From Pontiellaceae bacterium B12219 (lineage in GTDB: Bacteria; Verrucomicrobiota; Kiritimatiellia; Kiritimatiellales; Pontiellaceae), in contig JARNMJ010000002.1 in the NCBI GenBank assembly GCA_029432795.1, positions 62,001-126,000 of the forward strand: a DNA stretch of 64,000 nucleotides. Reading direction: 5' to 3'. Shown piece after piece: positions 17,280-54,800 of the stretch. A model generated the notes under the pieces. It saw only the letters and a list, made by a program, of their open reading frames with translations. It did no database searches and had not been told where the DNA came from. Position 1 is the first letter of the stretch, and the number at the start of each line of letters is the position of its first letter. A program made the translations under genes and the position numbers.

Positions 17280-17606
17280 TTAAAAGTTCCATAGATAATC
17301 GAGTCCGATAATCTCTCCGACCGGCAATGTGAAAACAATGCCTTTTCCCGGCTCTGAAAGTTCTCCGGCGGCAGTTACAGCTGAAAGGATTTCTTCTACG
17401 TGCGTTTGGGGAGCAAGGATCAGCGCGACTTCTTTCATTGCATCAACCTGCAGTCTGAAAAAACTCAAATGCTCATCGGTACCCGTTCCGCGGGCAAAAA
17501 AAACCGTGGCTCCGGTAGCCCCCGCTTTTCGGGCAGCTTCAACAAGATGATCGGCTTTGCCCCGCTCGACAATAGCGACGACGGCGGCATATTTATTTTG
17601 ATTCAT
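17280..17606 (-). CDS. PII-like nitrogen-regulatory family protein
   Basis: This small protein of about 108 residues has the ferredoxin-like PII fold: a beta strand in YAAVVAIVERGKADHLVEAARKAGATGATVFFARG, the loop TGTDEHLSFFRLQ in place of a long T-loop, and the C-terminal GKGIVFTLPVGEIIGLDYL. It lacks the canonical uridylylated tyrosine context of GlnB/GlnK. The start at 17606 is preferred because of the AGGGGAAAG box. It overlaps the end of the DUF1538 gene by four bases, a pairing that recurs in genomes and suggests that PII senses or gates the membrane partner. Confidence 0.85.
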   Translation of the reverse strand: MNQNKYAAVVAIVERGKADHLVEAARKAGATGATVFFARGTGTDEHLSFFRLQVDAMKEVALILAPQTHVEEILSAVTAAGELSEPGKGIVFTLPVGEIIGLDYLWNF

Positions 17607-18307
17607 AGTCTTTCCCCTGCAGTTCCCATCACCAAAACGGCGGCTGTTGTGCAAAATGCGGTAAGCGCAATAAGTCCGAACCCATGCCGAATGGGGTCGG
17701 CACCGGAAACACTCTGCGAAAGGCCGATGGCAATGCCGAGCAAAATTGGAATATTGACCGGCCCGGTGGTGGCACTCGCGCTGTCAAAGGCAATTCCGAC
17801 GATATGGCTCGGCGCAATCAGCACCAGTAACAGGAGAATGGAGAGCCCGATCAGCACCGCGGTTTTCATTGAAAACGGAGAAATAATCCGCACGACCCCC
17901 AGCCCGGTTCCAAGTGAAAAACCAATGGCTGATGCGTGAATAATTGCCGGTTTTCGAATGGCCCCGACCGAAAGTTCCTCCACCTGAAGAGCGAGCGCAC
18001 GCAGCCCCGGCTCGAGGAGTGTCGCCAAATAGCCGACTGTGCAGGCAAAGATCACGACGGGGATCTTATAGCGAACAGATGCCAGATCCCGACCGGTCTG
18101 TTCCGTGAGCGGAATCAGACTTCCGGAAATCCCGGCCAGGAACAGATAGAGCCCCAGAACAGTAAGAACCATTGCTCCAGCCAAGGTCCACCCCTCTCGA
18201 AGGGGCTGCCGAAGGAATAGAAGCCTTACAACCATAAACAGCCCAACGATGGCCAACATTGGTTTTGCAAGCGACCAAAGCTCTAGAATGATCGGGCGGA
18301 TTGTCAT
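17603..18307 (-). CDS. DUF1538 family membrane protein
   Basis: This 234-residue protein has about seven hydrophobic segments and the DUF1538 signatures YKIPVVIFACTVGYLATLLEPGLRALA near 80 and IGFSLGTGLGVVRI near 128. The biochemical role of the family is not established to my knowledge. A transporter is the natural reading of the topology. Start and stop codons overlap the flanking usp-like and PII genes by four bases, so the three are translated as one unit. Confidence 0.85.
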   Translation of the reverse strand: MTIRPIILELWSLAKPMLAIVGLFMVVRLLFLRQPLREGWTLAGAMVLTVLGLYLFLAGISGSLIPLTEQTGRDLASVRYKIPVVIFACTVGYLATLLEPGLRALALQVEELSVGAIRKPAIIHASAIGFSLGTGLGVVRIISPFSMKTAVLIGLSILLLLVLIAPSHIVGIAFDSASATTGPVNIPILLGIAIGLSQSVSGADPIRHGFGLIALTAFCTTAAVLVMGTAGERL

Positions 18308-19545
18308 ACCGCCAGGGACTCCTGCTGAGGTACGGATTTCAGATCGCTGTAATTTTTAACGAGTGCACTGTTCTCATAGGGAAAGTCCTCATGCGGTTCG
18401 AGAATCTCTACCGCTTCGGCGGCGGTTTTGCAGCGCAGCAAGGCTTCCCGTACCGATGAATTGAGCATTCGTTTGGATATTTTTGAAAGGAATGCGAGGT
18501 ATTCGTCGCAAAAGCCATCCGGCGTCACCAGTAAAAATACAAAGCGGGTCAGATGACCGTCAGTATGCCCGAAATCGATACCGTCCGGAAAGATTCCGAG
18601 CGTACCCGCGACCCCGAAAAAACCAGGCAATTTAACGTGAGGAAAGGCCGTTTCACAATCAACGGCGGTGGAGGAAATCTGCTCACGTTCCAGTGCGCGG
18701 GTAAGAATGTCTTTTTGGCTGGTTGGGGGTAATTGGTTATGTCGAATCAGATTATCAACCATGCTTTCCAACGCCTGGTTTTTACTGCGCGAGCGCAAAC
18801 GGGGTTTGATCAGCTTGCCCCATAACAATCGACGCAAGCTGATGTGTCCCAATGGCGGGCTGGACAACAGAATCAATGGATTCGGAATTCGCTTCGCCAA
18901 TTGGTCCGGTAAAGAACCTGCAAAGTCGGCAACCAGCCGCAGCGGACTCGGAGCACCGACAATCAGGAGGTCATCCGGTCGCAGGCTGCAGGCAACGGAA
19001 CCCGCAAAATCGGTACCGCTGCAATGAATGGTATCCACCTGCATATTGAGTAAATGAACGCACATTTTTTCAAGCGGTCCATTGTCGTTCGGTCCATCAA
19101 TCGGGATATCATTGAAATCAGGAGTCCAGTGCAGAATTTCAACCGGAACACCGAGATCGGATGCCGTCTCTCTGGCCAGCCACATCTGTTCATACAGGTT
19201 CGGACCTCCGCCTGTTGCAACAACAACCCGGCGAACTTTTTTAACTTCTGTGGTCCGAACAAAAACCGCGGGTATTTCCCGCTCTTGCGCGAGATGGATT
19301 AAGTCCTGCATCGCCCGGGTATGACCAAGCCATTCGGAAATAATCAGATCCAGTTTGCGTTCTTCCGCGAGGCGTCGTATTTCCGAAACGGCTAACGCAT
19401 CATCTTCCGGAACAGCAAAACCCGGAATAAGCACACGGTGGTATACCGCATCTTTTGATACGGAGAAAAAGCCGGCATGCCTGAACATTTCCGTTTCTGC
19501 TCCGCAAGAAGCCACAACCGCGATTTTTGTACATTGGGTTTTCAC
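18304..19545 (-). CDS. Fusion of universal-stress-like domains with a PTS EIIA-type domain
   Basis: The N-terminal 260 residues look like two Usp/HUP-type alpha/beta units (LDLIISEWLGHTRAMQDLIHLA, then RRVVVATGGGPNLYEQMWLARETA with a nucleotide-loop-like GG). Residues about 275-395 match a mannitol/nitrogen-type EIIA domain, with the phosphorylatable histidine in ISSTAVDCETAFPHVKLPG. No other PTS gene is in the window, so the EIIA domain probably has a regulatory role and not sugar uptake. The gene sits in the sigma-54-linked operon between rnk and DUF1538. Confidence 0.75.
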   Translation of the reverse strand: MKTQCTKIAVVASCGAETEMFRHAGFFSVSKDAVYHRVLIPGFAVPEDDALAVSEIRRLAEERKLDLIISEWLGHTRAMQDLIHLAQEREIPAVFVRTTEVKKVRRVVVATGGGPNLYEQMWLARETASDLGVPVEILHWTPDFNDIPIDGPNDNGPLEKMCVHLLNMQVDTIHCSGTDFAGSVACSLRPDDLLIVGAPSPLRLVADFAGSLPDQLAKRIPNPLILLSSPPLGHISLRRLLWGKLIKPRLRSRSKNQALESMVDNLIRHNQLPPTSQKDILTRALEREQISSTAVDCETAFPHVKLPGFFGVAGTLGIFPDGIDFGHTDGHLTRFVFLLVTPDGFCDEYLAFLSKISKRMLNSSVREALLRCKTAAEAVEILEPHEDFPYENSALVKNYSDLKSVPQQESLAV

Positions 19546-22905: not shown

Positions 22906-23193
22906 ATTCGATCCTATTTATACCAATCGTAATAACATTGCGGTATGAATGTCTCGGCAGGCTGGCCCGGTATGTTTTGGCAAAATGGTATCAGTTGTAA
23001 AAATTTAGCACACCCAAAAGGATTGTCCACCGAACGTTGCTTCGGCTGTTCCCCTGCCCGCGTGGCCCCCGTGTTCAATCCGTCAATGCCGTCGTTCATT
23101 ATCACCGTCCTGAAATAAAAAAGGGAGCCTTGCGACTCCCGAAACCTCGCACCCTTCCTCCGGCGTTGCCTGGAGGAAGGGGCTTTTTACCCG
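22906..23193. other. Intergenic region upstream of the sensor kinase
   Basis: I see no convincing gene. The 63-residue open frame at 22914-23105 lacks a ribosome-binding site. The right part contains two hairpins: a CCTTCCTCC/GGAGGAAGG inverted repeat near 23152-23182 and the terminator of the 36-aa ORF at 23115-23141. Confidence 0.6.
23115..23141 (-). terminator. Terminator of the 36-aa ORF
   Basis: On the minus strand GGGAG, a short loop and CTCCC are followed by six Ts. It lies about 55 bases after the stop of the 36-aa ORF and before the kinase gene. Confidence 0.7.
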
Positions 23194-23304
23194 CTAACGG
23201 GCAACGGCCTTCCCGGCGACAATTCCATTTTTCTCACGCTGGAGTCTTTTCTTTTCCTTTAACGTAAGTTTAGGCGTTTTCCGCCCGGACTTTTTCTTAG
23301 GCAT
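23194..23304 (-). CDS. Unannotated 36-residue basic peptide behind a sigma-54 promoter
   Basis: The ORF reads MPKKKSGRKTPKLTLKEKKR and continues to a stop at 23194. About a third of its residues are lysine or arginine. AAGGAG lies seven bases before the ATG, and a sigma-54 promoter is centred about 65 bases upstream. A terminator follows. The complete promoter, ribosome-binding site, ORF and terminator unit makes a real small gene likely despite its length. A nucleic-acid-binding role is only a guess from charge. Confidence 0.6.
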   Translation of the reverse strand: MPKKKSGRKTPKLTLKEKKRLQREKNGIVAGKAVAR

Positions 23305-23362
23305 GTCATTCTCCTTTCATCGTTTATTTAATGAACACTATGCGAGCCTGATGCCGCCCTAC

Positions 23363-23379
23363 TGCAATGAGCATGCCAC
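23363..23379 (-). promoter_or_regulatory. Sigma-54 promoter (-24/-12) of the 36-aa ORF
   Basis: The minus strand reads TGGCATGCTCATTGCA, with GG and GC exactly 10 bases apart. Transcription would begin near 23352, giving a leader of about 48 bases before the 36-aa ORF. Confidence 0.7.
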
Positions 23380-23726
23380 CGCCGATTCAGCACATTTTAC
23401 CAGATGATCCGCTTGAATTATAAAATCCTTACCCGGCTTGAAATGCGCTAATTACAAAAGTCACCCCGAATAACTCAACGTGAGAGCGCCCGTTGCAAGG
23501 GATCGTTTGGACCGGTTTCCAGGCGCATTTTTCAGGGTAAAAATACCCCTGAGGGAAAATAGTACCCACCGGCCCGAAAAAATTTCGCAGCACTTCCGCT
23601 GGGCTGCAACAGCATCCGCAAACTGAAATGTTAAAAAAAACGTCGAAAGATGATTCCCGCTTGTGCTTACTTTGTCTCTGTTAATTGAACAGTCCAAAGA
23701 ATCCCCCAACTGAAGGAGTATATAGC

Positions 23727-24167
23727 ATGAATAAAATGGCCAAATACCTGACTGTATTCGTCTTATTTGCAGCAGCAAGCATCGTAACCGTTCACGCACA
23801 TTGCCAGGTTCCATGCGGCATCTACGACGATCAGATGCGTTTTCACATGATGGAAGAGCATGTGACCACAATCACCAAAGCCATGACGCAGATCGAAGCC
23901 GGTCAGAATCAGAACCAGACGGTTCGCTGGGTGATGACCAAAGAACAGCACGCGGATGAAATCATTGAAATCGCGTGTCAGTACTTTCTCGCACAGCGCA
24001 TTAAACCGGGAATGGATCACTATGAAGAAAACCTGAAAACGCTGCATGAAATCATCATTACTTCCATGAAGTGCAAACAGACCACCGATGTGGCAAACAC
24101 AACAAAGCTGGGAGAGCTGATCCATTCGCTGGAACACACCTACCTCGGCGAAAAGCACCAGCACTGA
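23727..24167 (+). CDS. sodN: Nickel superoxide dismutase with a Sec signal peptide
   Basis: The precursor has 146 residues. The first 24 form a typical signal peptide (basic MNKMAK, hydrophobic core, VTVHA cleavage box). Cleavage after Ala24 would leave HCQVPCGIYDD as the new N-terminus, which is the nickel hook H-C-x-x-P-C-G-x-Y in which the free amino group, His1, Cys2 and Cys6 bind nickel. The remaining 122 residues match the usual four-helix subunit (about 117). The ATG at 23727 follows a GAAGGAG box. The enzyme would detoxify superoxide outside the cytoplasm. No sodX-type maturation protease gene is adjacent. Confidence 0.9.
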   Translation: MNKMAKYLTVFVLFAAASIVTVHAHCQVPCGIYDDQMRFHMMEEHVTTITKAMTQIEAGQNQNQTVRWVMTKEQHADEIIEIACQYFLAQRIKPGMDHYEENLKTLHEIIITSMKCKQTTDVANTTKLGELIHSLEHTYLGEKHQH

Positions 24168-24230
24168 TAAATGCAAAGCTGGACGAATGGATGCCTTCCG
24201 ATCTGAAGGAATTGCATCTTTTCGCTGATG

Positions 24231-24268
24231 ACATCAAACCGGATACGATCCGGTTTGATGTTTTTTTT
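24231..24268 (+). terminator. Strong terminator after sodN
   Basis: A perfect 14-base stem (24231-24244 with 24248-24261, three-base loop) runs into a run of Ts. It closes the sodN transcript. Confidence 0.92.
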
Positions 24269-24529
24269 ATCGTGGAGCCTTTGGTTAAAATTTACTTCAG
24301 GAAATTTTCATTCAGACTCAGCTCCGCACCTACGCTCCGTTTTCCAATGGCTGGATTTCAAAAGCGGAAGACAACCGGTTCTCCATGGACTCGATTGCTC
24401 AAATGGACGGATGTCTGCAGATCCGCATTTTGCATCAACTTTTCCAACGTATGACACCTCCCGATTTAAAAGTTCTGCGGTAGCGTATCCCTGCCGTTTG
24501 AAAATTAAATTAACTGATGGAGGTATAAA

Positions 24530-24664
24530 ATGGCACTTGATTCAAATCATGACTATTCACAGGCGGAACTCGACAACCACGCCAATCAGCTGAACCCCGA
24601 TGCTGAAGCCTATTGGGACAGCCGAGGTGAGGAGATGCCCGACAACCGCGACGACCGGTTCTAG
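24530..24664 (+). CDS. Unannotated acidic 44-residue protein
   Basis: An ORF of 44 codons starts six bases after a perfect GGAGG box. It encodes an acidic, asparagine-rich product (MALDSNHDYSQAELDNHANQ, then NPDAEAYWDSRGEEMPDNRD). The NHANQLNPDAEAYWDSRG core looks like a conserved short-protein motif, but I cannot name the family. A GC-rich inverted repeat (CCGCCC/GGGCGG) follows the stop and may terminate transcription. The 260 bases between the sodN terminator and this ORF hold only a single-mismatch palindrome (24342-24356). Confidence 0.6.
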   Translation: MALDSNHDYSQAELDNHANQLNPDAEAYWDSRGEEMPDNRDDRF

Positions 24665-24895
24665 GAATCCGCCCGCCCTCGTCCGGCAATCGCCAGACGG
24701 GGGCGGCTTCTTCCGCCAGTTTTTAAAGGTCCTCTGCGTAATCAAAGGAAACAGCTTATGCATAATCCAGTCCGGCGATGCACCGACCAGTTGAGTCATA
24801 ACCAGATGATGAGAGATAAAGATCATTCCGAATCTGTCTTCGAGCCTCCCAAATGCAAACCGAAGCTTGCCATGGGAACCCCGGGACGGGAAAAA

Positions 24896-25309
24896 CTAAC
24901 TATCGCCTGGCAGCGGAAGGCCCGCGAACTCAGTGTCCAGCAGCAGAAGCCGCATTTTACTTAACAGCTTTTGCCTGCAGATCTCATCAAAATACCAGGC
25001 CAACCCCGCAATTTCGTCAAAATCGGCGGACTCAGAAAGCTCAAACTGTCCTTCCACAGAAGCCGTTGCTTCCATCAGCAGGAGGTCTTTTTCGGGATCG
25101 GGTTGCTCCCCTGTTCCGCTGAAGGCTTTCACCACCAACGAGGCCTTCCAGCAAATGGTTTTCGCCGGATCGCACAGGCATTCTTTACGGTTATCGTTAA
25201 AGTGAAAATTAACAAATCCCTTGCCTTCCGCCGGCTTGGAATTGTGCGAAATGAAAGTTTGCTGCGTAACCCGCAGTTGATGAACTGAAAGATCAGGCTT
25301 CGTATTCAC
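24896..25309 (-). CDS. SecB-like chaperone of a toxin-antitoxin-chaperone module
   Basis: The 137-residue product resembles SecB: beta-rich middle part, LLLMEATASVEGQFELSESADF near 75 and a C-terminal helix followed by LLDTEFAGLPLPGDS. I chose the GTG at 25309 because GAGGAGG lies six bases upstream. It overlaps the hicB stop by 17 bases. The gene is the third in hicA-hicB-secB. SecB-like proteins in such loci fold or protect the antitoxin. The family call rests on pattern, length and context. Confidence 0.55.
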   Translation of the reverse strand: MNTKPDLSVHQLRVTQQTFISHNSKPAEGKGFVNFHFNDNRKECLCDPAKTICWKASLVVKAFSGTGEQPDPEKDLLLMEATASVEGQFELSESADFDEIAGLAWYFDEICRQKLLSKMRLLLLDTEFAGLPLPGDS

Positions 25310-25754
25310 GGACGTCCTCCTCAATCCGATATCCACCGCCCCGCCGCATCGCATCAAAATCAAGCGGTTCGGTTACGCTGGTCTCCAGATGAATGTGCTG
25401 CTCGTTGTGATGGTGCACCTCACGCCCGGCCAGTTTCTCGGCAACCGCCTGAGATACAAAGTCGTTTAGCGTTGTTTCCAGCAACACGGCTTCGATCGCG
25501 GCAGCTTTATGAAGCTCCGGGGTCATACGGACATTAAACGTGCCCTTAAAGGATTTGTCGGGATCCTTACCGATCTCGGCGCAGGTTTCGAGATAGTCAT
25601 CGACGGAATCCCTAAAGGCCGCTTCGAGTTCGGGAACGGTCTCGGCCTCGTAGGTCACTAAATCATTAATATAAAGGATTTTTCCATGCAGGCATCCGTC
25701 CTCAAGGCTGTAATCAACCGAGCCGACATAGCTATTGTATTGAAGAGGTTTCAT
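25293..25754 (-). CDS. hicB: HicB-family antitoxin with a C-terminal extension
   Basis: The 153-residue protein has the HicB partial RNase-H-like domain (YNSYVGSVDYSLEDGCLHGKI, then ETVPELEAAFRDSVDDYLETC) and a ribbon-helix-helix DNA-binding segment (TFNVRMTPELHKAAAIEAVL, ending AVAEKLAG near 110). About 45 further residues, rich in His, Glu and Arg (HHHNEQHIHLETSV...), follow the DNA-binding part. In chaperone-addicted antitoxins such a tail is where the SecB-like chaperone binds, which is the inference here. Its start overlaps the hicA stop (ATGA). Confidence 0.85.
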   Translation of the reverse strand: MKPLQYNSYVGSVDYSLEDGCLHGKILYINDLVTYEAETVPELEAAFRDSVDDYLETCAEIGKDPDKSFKGTFNVRMTPELHKAAAIEAVLLETTLNDFVSQAVAEKLAGREVHHHNEQHIHLETSVTEPLDFDAMRRGGGYRIEEDVREYEA

Positions 25755-26002
25755 TTCAATTCTCCTTTCTCCCGCAGATGCGTCCTAACGTCTTGAAGGA
25801 CGTACTTTTTGACGATCGATCCAGGGTGCGGTTCATGCAAACTGATCAGATCCCCCGTGCTTTCCTTGTAAAACTTTCTTCGGGAACCTTTTCCTTTGAT
25901 CATTACGTATCCGAAACCACCCAGCAGCGAACAAAGTTCTTTCCAGGTAAAATCCGCCGGAATCGCCTCAAACCTCGCCCTCGCCTTTTCTTTCTTGCCC
26001 AT
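25751..26002 (-). CDS. hicA: HicA-family mRNA interferase toxin
   Basis: This 83-residue toxin has a dsRBD-like fold. The visible pattern is FTWKELCSLLGGFGYVMIKGKGSRRKFYKE, then ISLHEPHPGSIVKKYVLQDVRTHL. This is the subfamily in which a GSR motif replaces GSH and the catalytic histidine is expected in HEPHP. It is the first gene of the operon, with an AAGGGGA ribosome-binding site, and a 19-base palindrome lies 27 bases upstream. Confidence 0.85.
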   Translation of the reverse strand: MGKKEKARARFEAIPADFTWKELCSLLGGFGYVMIKGKGSRRKFYKESTGDLISLHEPHPGSIVKKYVLQDVRTHLREKGELK

Positions 26003-26028
26003 GTTCTACCCGATCCCCTTCTACCTAT

Positions 26029-26047
26029 GCAACTGAATTTCAGTTGC
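26029..26047. promoter_or_regulatory. Palindromic operator upstream of hicA
   Basis: GCAACTGAA-T-TTCAGTTGC is a perfect 19-base palindrome ahead of hicA. It is the natural binding site for the HicB ribbon-helix-helix domain and for autorepression. A TATAT stretch next to it on the minus strand may be the -10 element. Confidence 0.7.
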
Positions 26048-26085
26048 AAATGCGCTTCGTGCATATACGTTCATAAAATCTACAG

Positions 26086-27354
26086 CTATTCCACCGTCAC
26101 CTGACCGTTCATCAGCATCGGCAACAGCCAGTCCCGCAGTTCCGTCAGGTGCTGGGTTTCTTTAACCGACAGATTACATCGTTCCCAAACTGGAATAATC
26201 CGTTCATTAAAATCTGCCAGCAATAATTTAGGAGGTAATGCCAGTGTATATCCGGAAAGCGACCTCCAACTTGCACGCGGCATTCGGGTTCCTCCAGATG
26301 CCGAGGTAGCAAACTTAACAACATCCTCCTGAAAGATAGTACAGCCGACATAACCACGTAATTCGGTATCTTTTGCTCTAATTACAAGAATATCAGTAGA
26401 ACAAATTCCAGCCTCTGGAACTTGGCAAACCTTATGAAAATAGGGACGTAGTTTTCCGAAAAGAAAATCGTCCTTTTCAAAGCCAGACTTCTGACTATTA
26501 ACACCATCAGAAACTCCAGAATTCCAAAGTGAAAACTGCTTTCGTCCTATATGTTCAAGCCCAACGTAAAGTGTATTCGAATCACATGCATTGGGGTCAG
26601 CAGGCTTTCGGATATTTACAGCAACGTCTCCCAATGTTCCACTATCCCACCCTGCGGGGATTTCGCGTTTGAGGGTTTTGTTGTAGACCATTTTTCCGCC
26701 GGAGGATTTGTAGGGGCGGCCGTTGGCATCGGGGAAATCAAACTGCACAAACCAATAGTCGTAGAGCGTCTTTGCCATCGCCTCCAGCTCCGCATTGATC
26801 CGGCTGTTTAACTCAATCTTTGCGTCGAGGGCGGAGAGAAGATTCGCTACACGCTTCTGTTCACCAAGAGATGGCAGAAATACGGGTGTATTCTTCAAGA
26901 TACTCAAGTTTGTATGGGGTACTCCTGTCCGAATAGCATTCTGCTGAATATACTTCTGCTGCTGTTTTCCGATGAAGGTATAATAAAGAAAAAGGGAATC
27001 TGCCTTCTGAGAGTCCACTGTCAATTTCATCTGACTTTGCGAGATCAAGTAACGAGATGCACCATTCTCTGGGACTAAAGCAACCTGCCCGATTGTTCCA
27101 CGCTGAGTAAAAATAAGGTCACCCGGCTTCGCACAATTAGCGGAAAGAGAATCTGCCTTTTCTTCTGATACGTAAACAAATGCACCTGAAACCCATCGAC
27201 CGGAGCCCATATTTGTCCCGCGAATAACCGGAACTCCTGAGGGCTTGTAATCCTTAGACACTAAGTCGGAACCAAATGGCCCACCCACCAATGCGTTGCG
27301 TTCCATGGATAACAATTCGCTGACATTATACCTTTTCCATTCGCTAGACTTCAT
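26086..27354 (-). CDS. hsdS: Type I restriction enzyme specificity subunit HsdS
   Basis: This 422-residue protein has two target-recognition domains, each followed by a conserved helical spacer. The central spacer reads LLSALDAKIELNSRINAELEAMAKTLYDYWFVQFDFPDANG and the distal one LTELRDWLLPMLMNGQVTVE. It sets the DNA sequence read by the methylase and restriction complex. An AGGGGG ribosome-binding site lies six bases before the ATG, inside a copied hsdM tail. It contains one perfect dispersed palindrome (26406-26420). Confidence 0.95.
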   Translation of the reverse strand: MKSSEWKRYNVSELLSMERNALVGGPFGSDLVSKDYKPSGVPVIRGTNMGSGRWVSGAFVYVSEEKADSLSANCAKPGDLIFTQRGTIGQVALVPENGASRYLISQSQMKLTVDSQKADSLFLYYTFIGKQQQKYIQQNAIRTGVPHTNLSILKNTPVFLPSLGEQKRVANLLSALDAKIELNSRINAELEAMAKTLYDYWFVQFDFPDANGRPYKSSGGKMVYNKTLKREIPAGWDSGTLGDVAVNIRKPADPNACDSNTLYVGLEHIGRKQFSLWNSGVSDGVNSQKSGFEKDDFLFGKLRPYFHKVCQVPEAGICSTDILVIRAKDTELRGYVGCTIFQEDVVKFATSASGGTRMPRASWRSLSGYTLALPPKLLLADFNERIIPVWERCNLSVKETQHLTELRDWLLPMLMNGQVTVE

Positions 27355-27445
27355 TAATCACCCCCTTGAGCTGTTTTTTGATTTCCGATTCGAGGGATCT
27401 TGATTCGGCGAAAAGTGAATCGAGGTTGATGAACGGGTTGATCAT
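27344..27445 (-). CDS. 33-aa ORF duplicating the C-terminal tail of HsdM
   Basis: The ORF starts at an ATGA overlap with the yhcG stop, seven bases after a GGAGG box. It encodes MINPFINLDSLFAESRSLES... and ends inside the first codons of hsdS. Twenty-one codons (LDSLFAES to KQLKG) match the HsdM C-terminus (28583-28645). I count 54 of 63 bases identical; seven of nine differences are silent and the other two are Lys/Arg and Thr/Ser. It may be a translated peptide, a translational-coupling module that carries the hsdS ribosome-binding site, or both. Confidence 0.65.
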   Translation of the reverse strand: MINPFINLDSLFAESRSLESEIKKQLKGVINEV

Positions 27446-28575
27446 AATTCATCCTCCAGCTGACGGGTAATGGATTCGAGCTGCTGTTGGAGTTCTTCTT
27501 TGGAGGGTAGATAGAGCTGGTATTTGGAAGCATAGATATTGGCATCTTCGGGAAGGGTTAATTCAACGAGCGCATCATTTTTGCGGTGGCAGAGGACGAT
27601 GCCGATGGTCGGGGCTTCGTCGGCGGTTTTGACGTGGCGGTCGAAGTGGTTGACATACATCTGCATCTGGCCGAGATCCTGATGGGTGAGCTTGTCGCGT
27701 TTGAGATCGAGCAGCACATAGCAGCGCAAGAGGCGGTTATAGAAAACGAGGTCGACATAGTAGTGATCGTTGTCGAAGGTGAAACGTTTTTGGCGGGCCT
27801 CGAACAGGAAGCCTTTGCCGAGTTCGAGCAGGAATTGTTCAAGCTGATCGATAATGGCGGTTTCGAGTTCTGCTTCGGAATAGGCCGCGCGCTCTTCTAA
27901 TGCCAGAAATTCGAGCACGAGCGGATTTTTGATGAGGTCGGCGGCGGTTTCAACCACCTGCCCTTCCCGGGCCAGGCGCTTGATTTCGTTTTTGTCGCGA
28001 CTCAATGCCAACCGCTCATAGAGCGAACTGCCGATCTGGCGTTCCAGCTCGCGCACGCTCCAGCTGTTTTCGGCGGCCTCGATTTCGTAGAAACTGCGCT
28101 CGGCCGGATTGTCGATGGAGAGCAGCACCACATAGTGCGACCAGCTCAGCTTGAAAGTGCTTGTCAGTTCCTGAAATGCGGGGGAAATCCGAGACGGCAT
28201 CTCGGAAGCAGATTCGCCAGACACTGTCTGCTGAATCTCTAACCCGTTAATTACGTGCATGTTGAATAATTCGCCAGACAGTGTCTGGCGAATCTCAGCG
28301 TATTGTTGAAAAAACGCACGAAAGTGACGGAGGTTGGTTGTTGAACACCCCTTGATACCTGAATCGTTGAGCTTTTTAGATAAAGCATCAATAAAACGTT
28401 CCCCATACTCAGCCCGATCCGCACCGTTCTGCTGATATTCAACCATATACCACCCAAAGAGCCAGTTGCGCACGACGAGGCTAATATTGACGGAGCGGGC
28501 AGCCTGCCGCTGCATGGCCTCATGCGTCTGCCCGCAAAACGACACCAGCGATTCAAAATTAAATGGCTCATTCAT
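27442..28575 (-). CDS. YhcG/DUF1016-family PD-(D/E)XK nuclease protein within the hsd operon
   Basis: This 377-residue protein has the N-terminal helical DUF1016 domain (LVVRNWLFGWYMVEYQQNG...YGERFIDALSKKL) and a C-terminal nuclease domain (FDNDHYYVDLVFYNRLLRCYVLLDLKRDKL) with the D-x(n)-D-x-K pattern. The ATG at 28575 overlaps the hsdM stop and follows AAGGGG by seven bases. The linker near residue 120-165 carries two QT(L/V)SGE repeats encoded by palindromic DNA. It is an extra cargo gene between hsdM and hsdS. A nuclease role in defence is inferred. Confidence 0.88.
   Translation of the reverse strand: MNEPFNFESLVSFCGQTHEAMQRQAARSVNISLVVRNWLFGWYMVEYQQNGADRAEYGERFIDALSKKLNDSGIKGCSTTNLRHFRAFFQQYAEIRQTLSGELFNMHVINGLEIQQTVSGESASEMPSRISPAFQELTSTFKLSWSHYVVLLSIDNPAERSFYEIEAAENSWSVRELERQIGSSLYERLALSRDKNEIKRLAREGQVVETAADLIKNPLVLEFLALEERAAYSEAELETAIIDQLEQFLLELGKGFLFEARQKRFTFDNDHYYVDLVFYNRLLRCYVLLDLKRDKLTHQDLGQMQMYVNHFDRHVKTADEAPTIGIVLCHRKNDALVELTLPEDANIYASKYQLYLPSKEELQQQLESITRQLEDEL
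28212..28293. repeat. Two copies of a 25-base palindrome inside yhcG
   Basis: At 28269-28293 the half-site ATTCGCCAGACA is followed by one base and its exact reverse complement. At 28212-28236 the same half-site recurs with two mismatches in the second half. They encode QTLSGE and QTVSGE. Copies of a palindrome inside a gene recall the palindromic elements that insert in frame in some genomes. Confidence 0.85.
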
Positions 28576-30184
28576 ACCGCAACCCCTTGAGCTGTTTCTT
28601 AATTTCAGATTCGAGGGTTTTGGATTCGGCAAAGAGCGAATCGAGGGTTGAAGAAAATCCTTTCATTTTGGCTTCAAACTCGGCGGGGGTGATGTCGATG
28701 TATTCGATTTTGACGTCGAAATACTGCCCGGCGGAGAGGGAATAGTTTTTGGCGGCGATGTCGGCGTAGGAAACCACGACGGAAAAATCGTCGACGGCTT
28801 CTTTGGCGTTAAAGGTGGTGATGATGCGTTCTTCCTCTTCCTCGCTCAGCAGGGTTTTCTGATTTTTGCCGTCTTTGACTTTTTTCCCGAGGTTGGACGC
28901 ATCGAGCAGGACGACGTCGCCCTGATTGGTTTTATCGAGAAACAGGATCGAAACATTGGTGCCGGTGGTGGCAAAAATATTGCTCGGCATGGAGACCACG
29001 CCGGCAAGCATTTTGGAGTCGACCAGTTTTTGGCGAATCTTTTTATCGATGCCGGACTGGGCGGTAATAAATCCGGTCGGCACGACGACGGCGGCTTTGC
29101 CGTTTTCCGCCATGGAAAAGATGATGTGCTGCAGGAACAGCTGATAGACCGCCATTTTGTCTTTGGCCTTTTTGGGCACATTGGGCAGTCCGGCAAAAAA
29201 GCGTTCTTTGTTTTCCTTTCCGTCGAGCTGATCGCGGAAGTCGGAAAAATCCATTTTAAAGGGCGGGTTGGAAACAATGTAGTCAAACGTCCGCAAGGCG
29301 GAACCGTCTTTGTGGTAGGGATGCAGGATGGTGTTGCCCTGAATAATATTCTGAATCGAGTGCACCAGATTGTTCAGAATCAGGTTGAGCCGCAGCAGGC
29401 TGGACGATTTCTGGGAAATATCCTGCGAATAGATGGTGCAGCGCTGTTCGCCGATGGCGTGCGCCAGATTCATCAGCAAGGTGCCGGATCCGGCGGAGGG
29501 ATCGTAGGCCGTGACGTTCTGCACCTTTTCGGTGACGAGAATGGCGGCCATGATTTTGGCGACGGCGTGCGGGGTGTAATATTCAGCATATTTTCCGCCG
29601 CTGTCTTTGTTGTAGTCTTTAATGAGGTATTCAAAGATCGCGGCGTAAAAATCATATTTCTGGGTAAAGATATGTTCGAAGCTGAATTCACCGAGCGTAT
29701 TGATCAGCGCGCGGCAGAAGTCGTCCCGCCGGTCGGTCACAAATTCACTGACGCGGTCGAATAGCGTGATTTTGGAACCGGCTTCGGTTTTGACGGAAAA
29801 AATGTCGACATTCACCACGGCAATGTCGCGCAGGGTGTCGTCGAAGGTTTTGGCAAAGTCGGGATCGTACTGCTGATTCCAAAGGGTGGAAATAAAATGG
29901 CGAGGCATCAGTTTGGCGGTTTCCGGTCCGATTTCCATCAGGACCATTTCATAGTCGTCTTCAGAAAGCCCGGCGGCGGCCTGCTCCCAGCTCTCGGCGG
30001 TTTTCAGCGCCGGTCTTTTCTGTTTCAGCTCGAACGCGAATTTGTCGTTCATAAACTTATAGAGAAACACCTGGGTGATAATCTTAAATTCGTTGCCATC
30101 GTTGCCGAGGCCGTACGAAGCACAGATGCCTTTCAGGGTATCGATCAGCTCTTTGGTCTTTTGTTCAAAATCGCGGGTGGTCAT
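28568..30184 (-). CDS. hsdM: Type I restriction-modification DNA methylase HsdM
   Basis: This 538-residue adenine N6-methyltransferase has an HsdM N-terminal helical domain, the AdoMet-binding motif YDPSAGSGTLLMNLAHA near 228 and the catalytic NPPF in YIVSNPPFKMDF near 308. Its start overlaps the hsdR stop as ATGA and its stop overlaps yhcG. The last 23 codons are copied upstream of hsdS. One palindrome with a Y-position mismatch lies at 29877-29891. Confidence 0.96.
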   Translation of the reverse strand: MTTRDFEQKTKELIDTLKGICASYGLGNDGNEFKIITQVFLYKFMNDKFAFELKQKRPALKTAESWEQAAAGLSEDDYEMVLMEIGPETAKLMPRHFISTLWNQQYDPDFAKTFDDTLRDIAVVNVDIFSVKTEAGSKITLFDRVSEFVTDRRDDFCRALINTLGEFSFEHIFTQKYDFYAAIFEYLIKDYNKDSGGKYAEYYTPHAVAKIMAAILVTEKVQNVTAYDPSAGSGTLLMNLAHAIGEQRCTIYSQDISQKSSSLLRLNLILNNLVHSIQNIIQGNTILHPYHKDGSALRTFDYIVSNPPFKMDFSDFRDQLDGKENKERFFAGLPNVPKKAKDKMAVYQLFLQHIIFSMAENGKAAVVVPTGFITAQSGIDKKIRQKLVDSKMLAGVVSMPSNIFATTGTNVSILFLDKTNQGDVVLLDASNLGKKVKDGKNQKTLLSEEEEERIITTFNAKEAVDDFSVVVSYADIAAKNYSLSAGQYFDVKIEYIDITPAEFEAKMKGFSSTLDSLFAESKTLESEIKKQLKGLRYE

Positions 30185-33100
30185 GCGTGGGTTCCATTAA
30201 ATTCGTTCAGATATTCATTCACCACCAACCCGTTGATAAAACGGGAGGTGTCGGCATTCAGCGGCAGATTCCGCCGGGTTTTAAATTGGTCAATCACCAG
30301 CGGCATCATGCGGCCGCTGAAATAGGCTTCGTTTTCCAGCATCTTACTGTTTTGCAGCACGAAGCTGTCGGCATCGGTTTTAACCCCCATCAGCGCCTCA
30401 TGGATCATTCGTTCCTTCAGCGAAAGCGCGTGGTTTTCCAGCATGCGTTTGTGGATGCGGGTATATTTGGGATCGTGATGATATTTGGCTTTCAGCTGCT
30501 CGTTCTTCCGGTTGAGTTCCTGAATCGCATCATGGATTTTACTCAGGGCTCCCATATTCTGATTCATTTCCTCCTGTGAAACTTCCTGCAGCTTCTTGGT
30601 TTTAAACAACCGTTCGAGCTCTTCGCGCAGTTTCACGAATCCGGGATCCTCCGGATCAAAATTACGGGTCATGGCTTCGCGGGTTTTGCGCAGCATATCT
30701 TTGAGCTCATCGGCCAGCTTCAGCTCTTCTTCGCCGACCTTGGAAAACATAAAGACAATATCTTCAAGTGCCTGATTCATCAGGTTGGCGGTTTCGCCCT
30801 CGCCTTCCAGGCTGGCTTTGAGGTTGAGCAACCCCAGATGATTACTGACTTCGCGGTAAAGCAGGTTCAGTTTTTTGAAGTCCACCATTTCCAGCAGTTC
30901 GTACCGCCCGGAAAAGCGGATCAGATTATACAGCTCGCGCGCGTTGCCCAGCGCTTTTTTGATCGCAAGCACCTCTTTCCGGTCCGCGATTTCGCTGATC
31001 TGCTGCTGAAAGATCTCGGCGTTGTCGCAGTCGAACCGGAACAGAATATCTTTGATCGCCTCGATCTCGGATTTGATTTCGTCCTCGGATTTAAACAGCT
31101 GGCTGTAGTGTTCAAATTCGTCGCCGAGTTCCAGCTGAAGCTCCTGCATATAGGCTTCGTTGGTAGCTTCAAACTCTTCCATGATGTCGGCAAAGTCGAC
31201 CACATAGCCGTATTTAAAATTCTTATAGGTCCGGTTCACCCGCGTCAGGGCCTGTAGCAGATTGTGTTTGCGGATGATGCGATTGAGATAGAGCTTTTTC
31301 AGACGGGGCGCATCAAAACCGGTCAGCAGCATGTTGTAGACAAACAGCAGGTCGATCTTCCCTTCCTTGAATTCGGTAATCTGCGCCTTGCGTTCCTCCT
31401 TGGTGCCGACATCGTGCAGAATCAAGGCGGCCCGTTTCACCCGCCGCTCTTCTTTACGCTGTGTTTTATACGGAGGCGGAGCGTCCGCTGCCACCGGCCA
31501 GTATTCCGCCTCGTCGAAGGTTTGCTGTGTTTTTTCAAACTGCTCAAACAGACTTTTGGCCTGTTCGGAGGAATCGCAAATCACCATGCCGCCGATGGAA
31601 GGGTCGTTCATGGTCAGCCGGGCATTTTCAAAATCGTCGAGAATATAGTCGAGCAATGGCCTGGTGTAATTCTCATGGGCATAAATCAGCTTTTTATTCG
31701 CGCCGCTCTTTTTCACGTCCATTTCTTCGAGCGCTTTTTTCAGCTGCATTTTATAGCTGGTTTCAATCTCTTCCCGAATAAGACGCAGCGTATAGCCGTC
31801 AGCTATGGAGGCGTTGTAATAATATTTGTGGATATAGCCGCCGAACAGTTTGCGTGAGTTCGTGTCATTCCCCAGCAGCGGCGTACCCGTCAATCCGATC
31901 TTGATGGCCTTGCGGTCCGACTGCGTCAGGTTGGCCAGAAAACTTCCCTTGGGATTGTAGCTGCGATGCACCTCGTCGAGAAAGTAGATGCGCTGGACGT
32001 CCACATCATAATCCGAAGCCGTGACCACATCGGGATCATCTTTGAACTTCTGAATGTTCACGACCGTGATTTCCGGCTTGCCGCTCAAATTGTGCAATGC
32101 CTTGGTGGCGCGGATCTCTCTGGCAAATTCATCCCGCGAGTTGATGTTTTTAACCACCAGTCCCCGGCTTGAAAATTCGGTGGAGGCCTGAATCAACAGG
32201 TCGATGCGATCCACGATAAAGTAAAACTTGGGAATAATACCGCGATGGGTGAAGTAGTCGGTCAGGTGTTTGACGTTGTAATAGGCCAGCGCCGTCTTTC
32301 CACTGCCCTGCGTGTGCCAGATAATTCCCTTGCGTTCGCCCTCGTCCAATTTGGCTTCAATCGCTTTGGTCGCGAAAAGCTGCGGATACCGCATGATGTG
32401 CTTTTCATGACCGTTCGAGGTCTTCACATAGGCAAAGGCATAGTTCAGCAGAAAGGCCAGCCGGTCCCGGCTGAACAGCGCGCTGGAAAGACGGTTGGTT
32501 GGTGAATCCGGATCTTTGTTGGTCAGGAATTCAGGATTGTGTTTGATGACCTCCAGATTGTTGTCCCGCAACACCGTGTCTTCCAAAAGATTATCTTCGG
32601 GCTTCAGCAACACGGATAGATCCCGATTTTCCTCTTCCCGGAAATAGTTAAACTTTACCGATCCATAGGCCGGCGTGGCATAAAACGCGCCTTCGATCGG
32701 TTCAGGCGATTCGTCGTCGTATTCCATATTATTGGAAAAGACCATCAATTGCGTAATGTTCGCAAACCGCCGGAATGTTGAATTCTTAAACCGGGTATCG
32801 ATCCGGTTGCGCTCCGCCAGAATGCCCTCTTTATTATTCGGTTTCTTTACTTCTATGAACACCAGCGGCATGCCGTTAATCAGCAATGTGATGTCCGGAC
32901 GGAATTCCTCGTCCCCGTTTTTGCAGGGCAGTTCAGTCAGCACATGAAATGAATTATTGTTGAAATCTTCAAAATCAATCAGCCGAACACCGGACTTTTC
33001 AATCAGCCGTTCATAAAACGATTTGCCCAGATCCTCAAAATCGAGCAACAGCCGCAACTCTTCCAGCAGGCGGTCCGTCGCATCATCATCGACATCCGGG

Positions 33101-33255
33101 TTTATCCGGCAGATGCTCTCCCGGAAAATACCGGGGAAAATATTGGTGGTTTCATCCCACGTGACTTCTGATTTCGGGAGATAGGTGTATCCCAGTCGGA
33201 CCAAATGGAGAATGGCCGGTATTTTAACCCTGGAATCTTCATTAAATTTCAACAT
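30181..33255 (-). CDS. hsdR: Type I restriction endonuclease subunit HsdR
   Basis: This 1024-residue motor subunit cleaves unmethylated DNA after translocation. It has the N-terminal nuclease core FRPDITLLINGMPLVFIEVKKPN near 130 (D...E-x-K), the Walker A loop IWHTQGSGKTALAYYN near 310, the DEAD-box segment IYFLDEVHRSYNPKG near 425, later helicase motifs (MLLTGFDAPRLKKLYLNR) and a helical C-terminal domain that binds HsdM. It is the first gene of the operon. The 150 bases upstream hold no gene and must contain its promoter. Confidence 0.96.
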   Translation of the reverse strand: MLKFNEDSRVKIPAILHLVRLGYTYLPKSEVTWDETTNIFPGIFRESICRINPDVDDDATDRLLEELRLLLDFEDLGKSFYERLIEKSGVRLIDFEDFNNNSFHVLTELPCKNGDEEFRPDITLLINGMPLVFIEVKKPNNKEGILAERNRIDTRFKNSTFRRFANITQLMVFSNNMEYDDESPEPIEGAFYATPAYGSVKFNYFREEENRDLSVLLKPEDNLLEDTVLRDNNLEVIKHNPEFLTNKDPDSPTNRLSSALFSRDRLAFLLNYAFAYVKTSNGHEKHIMRYPQLFATKAIEAKLDEGERKGIIWHTQGSGKTALAYYNVKHLTDYFTHRGIIPKFYFIVDRIDLLIQASTEFSSRGLVVKNINSRDEFAREIRATKALHNLSGKPEITVVNIQKFKDDPDVVTASDYDVDVQRIYFLDEVHRSYNPKGSFLANLTQSDRKAIKIGLTGTPLLGNDTNSRKLFGGYIHKYYYNASIADGYTLRLIREEIETSYKMQLKKALEEMDVKKSGANKKLIYAHENYTRPLLDYILDDFENARLTMNDPSIGGMVICDSSEQAKSLFEQFEKTQQTFDEAEYWPVAADAPPPYKTQRKEERRVKRAALILHDVGTKEERKAQITEFKEGKIDLLFVYNMLLTGFDAPRLKKLYLNRIIRKHNLLQALTRVNRTYKNFKYGYVVDFADIMEEFEATNEAYMQELQLELGDEFEHYSQLFKSEDEIKSEIEAIKDILFRFDCDNAEIFQQQISEIADRKEVLAIKKALGNARELYNLIRFSGRYELLEMVDFKKLNLLYREVSNHLGLLNLKASLEGEGETANLMNQALEDIVFMFSKVGEEELKLADELKDMLRKTREAMTRNFDPEDPGFVKLREELERLFKTKKLQEVSQEEMNQNMGALSKIHDAIQELNRKNEQLKAKYHHDPKYTRIHKRMLENHALSLKERMIHEALMGVKTDADSFVLQNSKMLENEAYFSGRMMPLVIDQFKTRRNLPLNADTSRFINGLVVNEYLNEFNGTHA

Positions 33256-47991: not shown

Positions 47992-48086
47992 GTTCGGTCA
48001 ATATGGTACCTTTGTGGTTTTATATCCAGTTCTGTTTCCCGAAAACTTTCAAGCCCGGGAAGCGGGTAAAACAATGTAAAATGCAC

Positions 48087-48115
48087 TTGCGTAACCTGCA
48101 CCCCGTCCGTATATT
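48087..48115 (+). promoter_or_regulatory. Candidate promoter of rpsB-tsf
   Basis: TTGCGT (48087-48092) and TATATT (48110-48115) are separated by 17 bases. The resulting leader of about 100 bases contains an AACCGG/CCGGTT hairpin (about 48130-48147) that could take part in S2 autoregulation. Confidence 0.55.
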
Positions 48116-48224
48116 CCGCCGCTTAATCAACCGGGAGTGCCGGTTGGAAGCGAAGGCCGTCTGCTACCTCGGACGTGTCAAAGCGGATTGTTTAAATTGT
48201 CAGTTAAACTATAGGAGAGGTAAA

Positions 48225-49259
48225 ATGTCTGATTCATTCACTAAGACAGTGTCTGTTAAGGATCTGCTTGATGCAGGCCTGCATTTTGGTCACCAGACCA
48301 AGCGTTGGAACCCGAAAATGAAGCGTTATATTCACGGCGCAAAAAACGGGATCTACATTATCGACCTGAACAAAACCCTGTCGCAGCTCCAGCTGGCGCA
48401 AACATTCCTCAACGATGTTGTTCTGCGCGGTGAAAAAATTCTTTTTGTGGGCACCAAGAAACAGGCCCGTGAAATTTTCAAAAACACAGCTGAAGAAACC
48501 AATCAGCCTTACGTGATTCATCGCTGGCTCGGCGGCATGCTGACCAACAATAAAACCATCCGCTCTTCCGTGGCCCGTATGCGCGAACTGCAGAAAATGC
48601 AGAACGACGGCACCATGGAAAAAATGCTGAAAAAGGAAGTTTCTGTTCTGCGTCGTGAACTGACGAAGCTGGAACGCAACCTCGGCGGTATTGCTGCCAT
48701 GGAAAAGAAACCGGGTGCCCTTTTTGTGGTCGACCTCAAGCGTGAGCATCTGGCCCTGGCTGAAGCCGCTCGTCTGAACATTCCGATTGTTGCACTGGTT
48801 GACACCAATGCCGATCCGGATCTCGTTGATTACCCGATCCCGGGCAACGACGACTCCCTTCGCTCTATCGGCCTGATCTCTGATATTCTCGGCGAAACCA
48901 TTAAAGCAGCTGATGCGGAACACACCGCAAAAGCGAAAGCTGAACGCGAAGCCCGCGAAGCTGCTGAAGCCATCGAACGCGAAAAAGCCAAAGCGGCCCG
49001 CGAAGAGCGCCAGAAGAAAGAAGCCGAAGAAAAGAAGAAGCGCGAAGAAGTGCTGAAAAAAATCAAAGAGCAGAAGAAAAAAGCTGACGAAGTCAAAAAA
49101 GCTGAAGCTGCCGCTGCCAAAGCCGCTGAAAAGGTTGAAGCAGTAAAAGAAGAAGCACCTGCCGCTGAAGAAGCTGCTCCTGTTGCTGAAGCAGTAAAGG
49201 AAGAAGCTCCGGCCGTTGAAGCTGCCGCCGAAGAAACCGAAGCCAAAAAAGAAGACTAA
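48225..49259 (+). CDS. rpsB: 30S ribosomal protein S2 with a long charged C-terminal extension
   Basis: The ATG at 48225 follows AGGAGAGG. Residues 1-230 are a standard S2 (LLDAGLHFGHQTKRWNPKMKRYI, IDLNKTLSQLQLAQTFL, IPIVALVDTNADPDLVDYPIPGNDDS). About 110 additional residues form a lysine-rich coiled coil (EAAEAIEREKAKAAREERQ...) followed by an Ala/Glu/Pro tail. Bacterial S2 is usually 230-260 residues, so the 344-residue length is clearly extended. The longer frame from 48003 is upstream leader sequence. Confidence 0.96.
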   Translation: MSDSFTKTVSVKDLLDAGLHFGHQTKRWNPKMKRYIHGAKNGIYIIDLNKTLSQLQLAQTFLNDVVLRGEKILFVGTKKQAREIFKNTAEETNQPYVIHRWLGGMLTNNKTIRSSVARMRELQKMQNDGTMEKMLKKEVSVLRRELTKLERNLGGIAAMEKKPGALFVVDLKREHLALAEAARLNIPIVALVDTNADPDLVDYPIPGNDDSLRSIGLISDILGETIKAADAEHTAKAKAEREAREAAEAIEREKAKAAREERQKKEAEEKKKREEVLKKIKEQKKKADEVKKAEAAAAKAAEKVEAVKEEAPAAEEAAPVAEAVKEEAPAVEAAAEETEAKKED

Positions 49260-51871: not shown

Positions 51872-54800
51872 ATGAAGAACACATTTAAATGGTTAAACAT
51901 CAGTCAGTTCACCGGGGCATTTAATGATAATGCCTTCAAAATGACGGCGATTATCGTCATTTCAAAACTGTTGGGACAAGCGCATCTGCCGCAGATCATC
52001 GCCATCTGCTCGGTCATGTTTATTATCCCGTTTCTGCTGTTTTCAAATGCCGCCGGCGCACTGGCGGACCGATTCAGCAAACGCGACATCATCATCGTCA
52101 GCAAATGGATGGAAATCACCCTGTTGCTGGTCAGTATTCCTGTTTTAATCTCGGGATTGGTCTGGCCCGCCTACGGTCTCCTTTTTCTGCTTTGTACGCA
52201 AAGCGCCCTCTTCGGCCCGGCAAAACGCGGCATCGTTCCGGAGCTGGTCGCTGAAAAAGGTCTTTCAAAAGCCAACGGTTATCTCACCGCATCAACCTAT
52301 GCGGCGATCATCATCGGCACCGCCCTGCCCGCGCTGTTGCTTGGCTTTCTCGGCCTGAATCCCATTGCCGTTTTAGCGTGCTGCACCCTGTTGGCTGTCG
52401 TCGGTACGTTCGCGGCCTATCGCATGGCCAAGGTTCCAGCCTTTGGAAATCGGAAACCGACTTCTCCATGGATCGTGCCGGACGTTGTTCGGGCACTCAA
52501 AAACCTGAAGCAGGACCGCTGGGCAACGCAGGCGGTTTTCGGGCTGGTCCTCTTCGGCGGCATTACGGCCCTCTTTCAGCAAACCCTGATTCTCTACGGA
52601 AAGCAGGCGCTCGATTTACCCATTGAAAAAGCGCCCATGCTTTTCCCGTTGGCTGCGATCGGCATCGGCGTCGGTGCCCTGCTCACCGGCCGTCTTTCAA
52701 AACACGCGATCGAAATCGGGCTGATTCCGGTCGGCGCTCTCGGCGTGATGGTTTCCGCAATCGGGCTGACCTTTTCCTCCAACCCCATCCTCATCGGCGC
52801 ATGGATTCTACTGCTCGGCATGGGATGCGGTATGTTCCTGGTCCCAATCAATGCCTTTCTTCAACAGCGCATTCCGGCCGACCGCCGCGGAGAAGTATTC
52901 GGCGCGTCCGGTTTCCTGAGCTTCGCCGCCATGATTCTTTCCTCCGGTCTGTTCTACGTGCTCACCAGAAAACTGCATATCGACGCCCGCGGATGCGTAT
53001 TCATCACCGGACTCATTGCCGCCATTCCCGCCGTACTGGCCTGCATGCGCCTGCCCGGATTCTTCACCCGCTTCTGGCTGATCCGTCTGGTTAAACGATT
53101 ATATAGAATCCGGTTCCAGGGATTGGAAAATCTGCCGCGCGAAGGCGGTGCACTGCTGATCTGTAATCACACGGCCTATGCCGATCCGCTGCTGATTCAA
53201 GCCGCAACGGGGCGCCCGGTTCGTTTTGTGATGTCGCGCGATGTGTTGAAAACCTGGAAATGGGCCTATCCCTTTTTCAAGCTTACCGACTGCATTCCAA
53301 TTCATACCTCCGACGGACCGCGTGCGCTCGCTAAATCGCTCAAGGAAGCGCGCGAGGCGATGGAAGCCGGCGCCATTATCGGCATCTTCCCGGAAGGCGA
53401 ACTCACCAAAAACGGCAACCTCATGAAATTTAATAAAGGCTTCGAGAAGATTGCCAAAAACAGCGGATGCCCGATCATTCCGGCGCACATCGGCAATATC
53501 TGGGGCAGCATCTTCAGTTTCAAAAACGGCAAACCCGGCTTTCGCAAACCGGAACAGTTCCCCCGCCCGATCTCCGTCCGCTTCGGGAAACCGCTTCCCA
53601 CCGCAACGCCGGCCGACGAAGCGCGCCGCGTCATTGCAGAACTTGGGGCGGAATATGCCACCGAACAAAGTCTCCTGCCGGGGAAAACGCTCAATCATCA
53701 ATTTCTGAAACAGGCGCGCCGCAACTGGAGCCGGCCAATGCTCTCCGATACGCTCGGACAGAAGGCCACCTATGGCAAACTGCTGACCGCAGCCATTGCG
53801 CTCGCAAACCGCATCAAACCGCAGATTGCGAATCAGAAACACGTCGGTATCTTCATGCCCACAACCGTCAGCGGCACGCTTTCAAATCTGGCCGTCACAC
53901 TGTCGGGCAAAGCGGCCCTTAACCTGAACTGGACATCATCCGTTGAAGCCCAGCAATCAGCCGTTGTGCAGGCTCGCGTTAAATATGTAATCACCTCCCG
54001 CCGATTCCTCCAGAAAATGAATCAGCCCGACCTGCCGGTCCGCTGGCTCTATCTCGAAGATCTGCTGAAAAACCTCAGTCGCACCGAACGGGTTCGGGCA
54101 CTTGGCGCGGCGCTGTTTTCCTCGGCCGAAAAACTGGCCGGCGGACACGAACCGCAACCGACCGACACCGCAACCATCATCTTTTCGTCCGGCACAACCG
54201 GCACCCCGAAAGGCGTGGTGCTCAGCCACTCGAATATTCTGTCCAACGTGGAATCCACGCAGGCGGTACAGCAGTTCAGGAAAAACGATGCCATCTGCGG
54301 CACACTGCCGCTGTTTCATGCTTTCGGTTATCTGGGCCTGATGTGGTGGCCGCTGCTGAAAGGCATGCGTGTGGCCTACCACCCGAACCCCACCCAGACC
54401 GGTCGCGTGATTAAGCTGATCCGCGAAGAAGGCCTCACGGCCCTCCTGACTACCCCCACCTTCCTGCAGAACTATATGCGGAAGGCGACGACCGATGATT
54501 TCCGATCTCTGGAAACCATTATTACCGGCGGCGAAAAACTGCGACCGGAACTGGCCACCGCCTTCACGACCAAATTCGGCATCCAGCCTCTGGAAGGATA
54601 CGGGTGCACCGAACTTTCGCCGGTCGCTGTGCTGAGCCTGAAAAACGGAAACCGCGACGGCAGTGCCGGCCAGCCGTTGCCGGGCGTCGCCGTCCGTATC
54701 GTTCATCCCGAAACTCGCGAAATCCTTTCCGACGGCGAGGAAGGGCTGATGCTGATCAAAGGACCGAATGTGATGCAGCATTATCTCGATAATCCCGAAC

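Follow-up and report, generated by a model that had tools for sequence, protein, structure and literature searches.

The 64,000-nucleotide stretch of DNA analysed here (the window) carries a gene for a nickel superoxide dismutase (Ni-SOD) that is very likely exported, with signal peptidase I freeing the nickel-binding residue His1 on export and with nickel bound and superoxide removed outside the cytoplasm. We infer the cleavage, the compartment, the site of nickel loading and the activity from sequence comparisons and a structure model. The source genome belongs to Kiritimatiellota, near Pontiella; among named relatives, Pontiellaceae B1224 and B12227 come closest (84% identity), followed by a Pontiella desulfatans MAG (72%). 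The Ni-SOD gene is single copy in the 4.75 Mb assembly, which is 96% complete. It occupies positions 23727..24167 on the + strand, from an ATG at 23727 to a stop codon at 24165-24167, and encodes a precursor of 146 aa. A Shine-Dalgarno motif, AAGGAG (23713..23718, + strand), lies 8 nt upstream of the ATG, and similar motifs precede the Ni-SOD genes of several relatives. Downstream, a consensus scan finds a terminator-like hairpin with a 15-pair stem followed by a T run (24230..24262, + strand), at which the gene probably terminates its own transcript.

The precursor consists of a presequence of 24 aa, MNKMAKYLTVFVLFAAASIVTVHA, followed by HCQVPCGIYDD and the Ni-SOD domain. The presequence is a predicted Sec signal peptide (residues 1-24; 23727..23798, + strand), cleaved between VHA and His. 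The hook HCQVPCGIY (23799..23825, + strand) would form residues 1-9 of a mature four-helix domain of 122 aa (23799..24164, + strand).

By profile, the protein is a Ni-SOD of a sequence-distinct subfamily. It scores 107.7 bits (E = 8e-31) on Pfam PF09055 (Sod_Ni), for which the gathering cut-off is 25, and 51 bits on the SodN equivalog TIGR02753, below the cut-off of 90, placing it outside the Streptomyces-like core; SodN of Nonomuraea reaches 163.2 bits on the same model. Modelled with AF2, the mature protein reaches a pLDDT of 88.4, with residues 1-5 uncertain, and the best Foldseek match of the model among solved structures is 1t6u (TM 0.77/0.80, prob 1.00), as expected of the four-helix subunit fold. 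The hook HCxxPCGxY is present with all nickel ligands. In an alignment of 62 distinct Ni-SODs (59 from the phylum sample, two further Kiritimatiellota proteins and one from Ilyobacter), H1, C2, P5, C6, I8 and D11 do not vary. Gln or Glu stands at position 3 throughout, where Streptomyces has Asp3, and the invariant Asp at position 11 replaces Streptomyces Pro11. His is found in 61 of 62 at the position of Streptomyces Arg47, the position of Glu17 varies, and Tyr9 is replaced by Phe in 10 of 62. In Streptomyces Ni-SOD, His1 is held by hydrogen bonding in a network with Glu17 and Arg47 (PMC5722923). Because this network is not kept, the subfamily may tune its His1 ligand differently from Streptomyces.

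The altered second shell and the score below the SodN cut-off also mean that SOD activity is not certain. The protein could be an exported metal-binder with a Ni-SOD fold and little SOD activity, such as a nickel or copper scavenger, and exported metal carriers with an N-terminal His are described in PMC12537917. This reading is nonetheless very unlikely: the full hook (H1, C2, P5, C6) is invariant in all 62 proteins, and the presence of Ni-SOD goes with the absence of other exported SOD types, as described below.

The presequence has the n-, h- and c-regions of a protein exported by Sec and cleaved by signal peptidase I. Its n-region contains Lys, its hydrophobic core has a best 12-residue Kyte-Doolittle (KD) mean of 2.53, and it ends with Val at -3 and Ala at -1 directly before HCQVPC. 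This assignment is based on conservation and the (-3,-1) rule. PF09055 is present in 61 of 387 genomes of the phylum, and the N-terminus is readable in 59 of the 61. A second, class-level sample added 23 distinct Ni-SODs, all of the same presequence/His-Cys design, for a total of 85 (84 from the phylum and one from Ilyobacter). Homologues were picked from fetched loci by HCxxPC, making the hook partly a selection criterion; nevertheless, the hook occurs in every Pfam-matched Ni-SOD gene with a readable N-terminus. In all 85 distinct homologues, a Sec-like presequence of 18-31 aa lies immediately N-terminal to His-Cys. Each of the 62 aligned presequences has a hydrophobic core (best 12-residue KD mean 1.58-3.5), with -1 occupied by Ala (55), Gly (5), Ser (1) or Pro (1) and -3 by Ala, Val, Ile, Leu or Ser. 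Of the 85, 84 have Ala, Gly or Ser at -1, and the remaining one, L063, has Pro. Signal peptidase I is encoded in the source genome, and 19 of the 21 genomes searched from the genus encode it as well. The earlier note had proposed that a Sec signal peptide ends exactly before HCxxPCGxY, and both the (-3,-1) motif and the 85 of 85 homologues bear this out.

The position of the cut matters, since any residue left before His would deny the protein a standard nickel hook. Three other sites in the precursor, after residues 15, 17 and 18, also fit the (-3,-1) rule, and the protein could be exported but anchored, with cleavage failing or falling at one of them. All three fall within the hydrophobic core or where it ends, however, and His-Cys and the -1 and -3 residues hold their place in the 85 homologues even though presequence length varies. 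That the motif stays fixed to His1 over presequences of 18-31 aa indicates that its placement is not due to chance and argues for cleavage exactly before His1; an anchored or miscut product is very improbable. Two other export routes were considered and rejected. Cleavage of a lipoprotein by signal peptidase II does not fit because His precedes Cys2 and a lipobox at Cys2 is present in 0 of 62. Export as a Tat substrate does not fit because MNKMAKYLTVFVLFAAASIVTVHA lacks RR; one of 62 presequences has an Arg pair, and that one is without the remaining Tat consensus.

A cleavage motif alone cannot separate a signal peptide from a propeptide of the kind removed by SodX, because SodX-type propeptides likewise end in small-x-Ala before His (ASA before His in Nonomuraea). 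The Ni-SOD might accordingly be cytoplasmic, with its presequence cut, as in Streptomyces, by a SodX-like peptidase that escaped recognition. Hydrophobicity and gene content argue against this. The Ni-SOD presequences of Nonomuraea and Novosphingobium, whose genes adjoin SodX-like genes (54.6 and 44 bits, respectively), are 14 and 19 aa long and have no hydrophobic core (KD 0.28 and 0.38), compared with 1.58-3.5 in 62 of 62 here. A search for sodX elsewhere in the genome, a check named in the earlier note, returned no profile match at E<=0.001. Because these true SodX proteins score 44-55 bits, below the TIGR02754 cut-off of 63.25, that cut-off alone is a poor test, and SodX was judged by adjacency and score together. 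Among the 387 genomes of the phylum no score was SodX-like (the best, 36.4 bits, is in a genome without Ni-SOD), and the DNA fetched around the Ni-SOD genes of the phylum encodes no GDSMxP-type peptidase. Distribution outside the phylum was sampled thinly. We rejected maturation by SodX, and a cytoplasmic enzyme processed by some other SodX-like peptidase is highly improbable.

Together, the Sec-like presequence, lack of SodX, presence of signal peptidase I and pattern of SODs across the phylum suggest that signal peptidase most likely frees His1. Sec transports proteins in the unfolded state, and signal peptidase I works at the outer surface of the inner membrane. The precursor would pass through Sec as an unfolded apo-protein, and a cut by signal peptidase I after Ala24 would free the amino group of His1. 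Once outside the inner membrane, the chain would fold and bind nickel there through the amine and side chain of His1, the backbone and thiol of Cys2 and the thiol of Cys6. Hook formation depends on the amide of Cys2 and on an unblocked amino group at His1, and so has to await removal of the signal peptide; given where signal peptidase I acts and how Sec transports, nickel should bind outside the cytoplasm. The mature enzyme would remove superoxide there, and a separate Fe/Mn-SOD would serve the cytoplasm. This agrees with the earlier proposal that export and maturation of the nickel site are a single step and that the enzyme works outside the cytoplasm.

The SOD inventories of genomes are consistent with an exported role. 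The source genome has one Fe/Mn-SOD, without a signal, and searches of it found neither Cu/Zn-SOD nor superoxide reductase. In the sample of the phylum, Cu/Zn-SOD (SodC) and Ni-SOD occur together in 0 of 17 (P = 0.05). At least two copies of Fe/Mn-SOD are present in 2 of 38 Ni-SOD genomes that have Fe/Mn-SOD versus 89 of 183 without Ni-SOD (Fisher P = 1e-7). All nine multicopy genomes that were read have one twin-arginine copy and one signal-less copy; one of them, G190, has three copies, of which two were read for this comparison, and another, G023, also carries Ni-SOD. The twin-arginine copies are at loci L085, L086, L088, L091, L093, L095, L096, L098 and L100 (e.g., MNRRFFITTTGAAVAGSLLSTGAQA), and the signal-less partner sits elsewhere in each of these genomes. 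Ni-SOD is the sole SOD among the three types searched in 23 genomes. The counts for SodC and extra Fe/Mn-SOD indicate that genomes with exported Ni-SOD mostly lack other exported SOD types. Relatedness among the genomes confounds this swapping: when the test is stratified by family, the exact tails multiply to 0.023, or to 0.0002 without the large genus g72, an exclusion chosen after seeing the data.

Twin-arginine Fe/Mn-SOD and SodC of the same phylum are predicted to share the exported role with Ni-SOD, and their folds are unrelated to it. Tat carries a folded, presumably metal-loaded enzyme, and Sec would carry apo Ni-SOD. We tentatively suggest, with somewhat more doubt than conviction, that Sec Ni-SOD, twin-arginine Fe/Mn-SOD and SodC, three unrelated enzymes, are alternatives for the exported-SOD role across the phylum and that the route sets the place of metal insertion. 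Fe/Mn-SOD would leave loaded by Tat, and Ni-SOD would leave empty by Sec, because its metal site exists only after cleavage of the signal peptide, uncoupled from cytoplasmic nickel supply and SodX.

The surroundings of the gene vary. At 23000-25000 of the window, the Ni-SOD gene has a two-component system on one side and HicAB/type I restriction genes on the other, unlike in relatives; in several Pontiella-like genomes it is just downstream of an open frame that ends in YIVPGLGDAGDRIFNTL and resembles uracil phosphoribosyltransferase. An operon or conserved neighbourhood was rejected because, of ten nearby window proteins, only Ni-SOD matched the loci of relatives. No phage or viral copies of Ni-SOD were found. 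Elsewhere in the window, a HicAB pair is followed by a type I restriction-modification operon encoding HsdS, a YhcG/DUF1016 nuclease, HsdM and HsdR (25293-33255, - strand). Ribosomal protein S2 (48003-49259) has an Ala/Glu/Lys-rich C-terminal tail of ~115 aa, and Met at residue 74 is probably its true start. A single protein of 1112 aa (51872-55210) combines MFS transporter, acyltransferase and AMP-binding domains in an Aas-like fusion, and a DUF1538 membrane protein adjoins a protein with a C-terminal PTS EIIA-2 domain (17603-19545).

Ni-SODs of this kind are known but have been little studied. Signal peptides may already have been noted in the classic Ni-SOD surveys (Dupont 2008, Schmidt 2009). 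Our searches of the accessible literature found nothing on Kiritimatiellota, nickel and SOD together, nor on phylum-wide consistency of the design and swapping with twin-arginine Fe/Mn-SOD. The pattern of SOD swapping is the newer part. What emerges is a Ni-SOD found across a phylum without detectable sodX, whose hook could instead be exposed through a general signal peptide. If this is correct, lack of sodX is no sign that a Ni-SOD does not work, and an exported class independent of SodX belongs in surveys of nickel use.

Novelty is lower than the earlier note implied, since signal-peptide Ni-SODs are already visible in PMC12537917 (2025), where a string search with the signal peptide preceding His in the Ni-SOD of the planctomycete Roseiconus lacunae is reported to have brought up many Ni-SODs. 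The Roseiconus protein (WP_230780104.1) likewise belongs to PF09055 and has a signal peptide that ends in SIASA before His; that study was aimed at other metalloproteins, and its accessible part does not discuss SodX or maturation of this Ni-SOD. A superoxide dismutase [Ni] of Ilyobacter polytropus (WP_013389192.1; 45% identity) has the same design, MNKLVLILSLLILIPNYLFA directly followed by HCEVPCGIYDD, but is from Fusobacteriota and encoded on a large plasmid. Algae have another N-terminal arrangement, ubiquitin-Ni-SOD fusions (PMC6332867), in which removal of the N-terminal partner would likewise expose the SOD N-terminus; these are eukaryotic and have ubiquitin in place of a signal peptide. 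Cyanobacterial Ni-SOD has been described as cytoplasmic and dependent on SodX, and the possibility has been raised that strains lacking sodX are unable to use Ni-SOD (PMC8346466). SodN of Streptomyces coelicolor (PDB 1T6U), matured by SodX, shares the HCxxPCGxY hook, the four-helix fold and the need for a free His1, with 14-20% identity in structural alignment to our model. It differs in having a short propeptide rather than a Sec-like signal peptide, and in relying on a sodX that is absent here.
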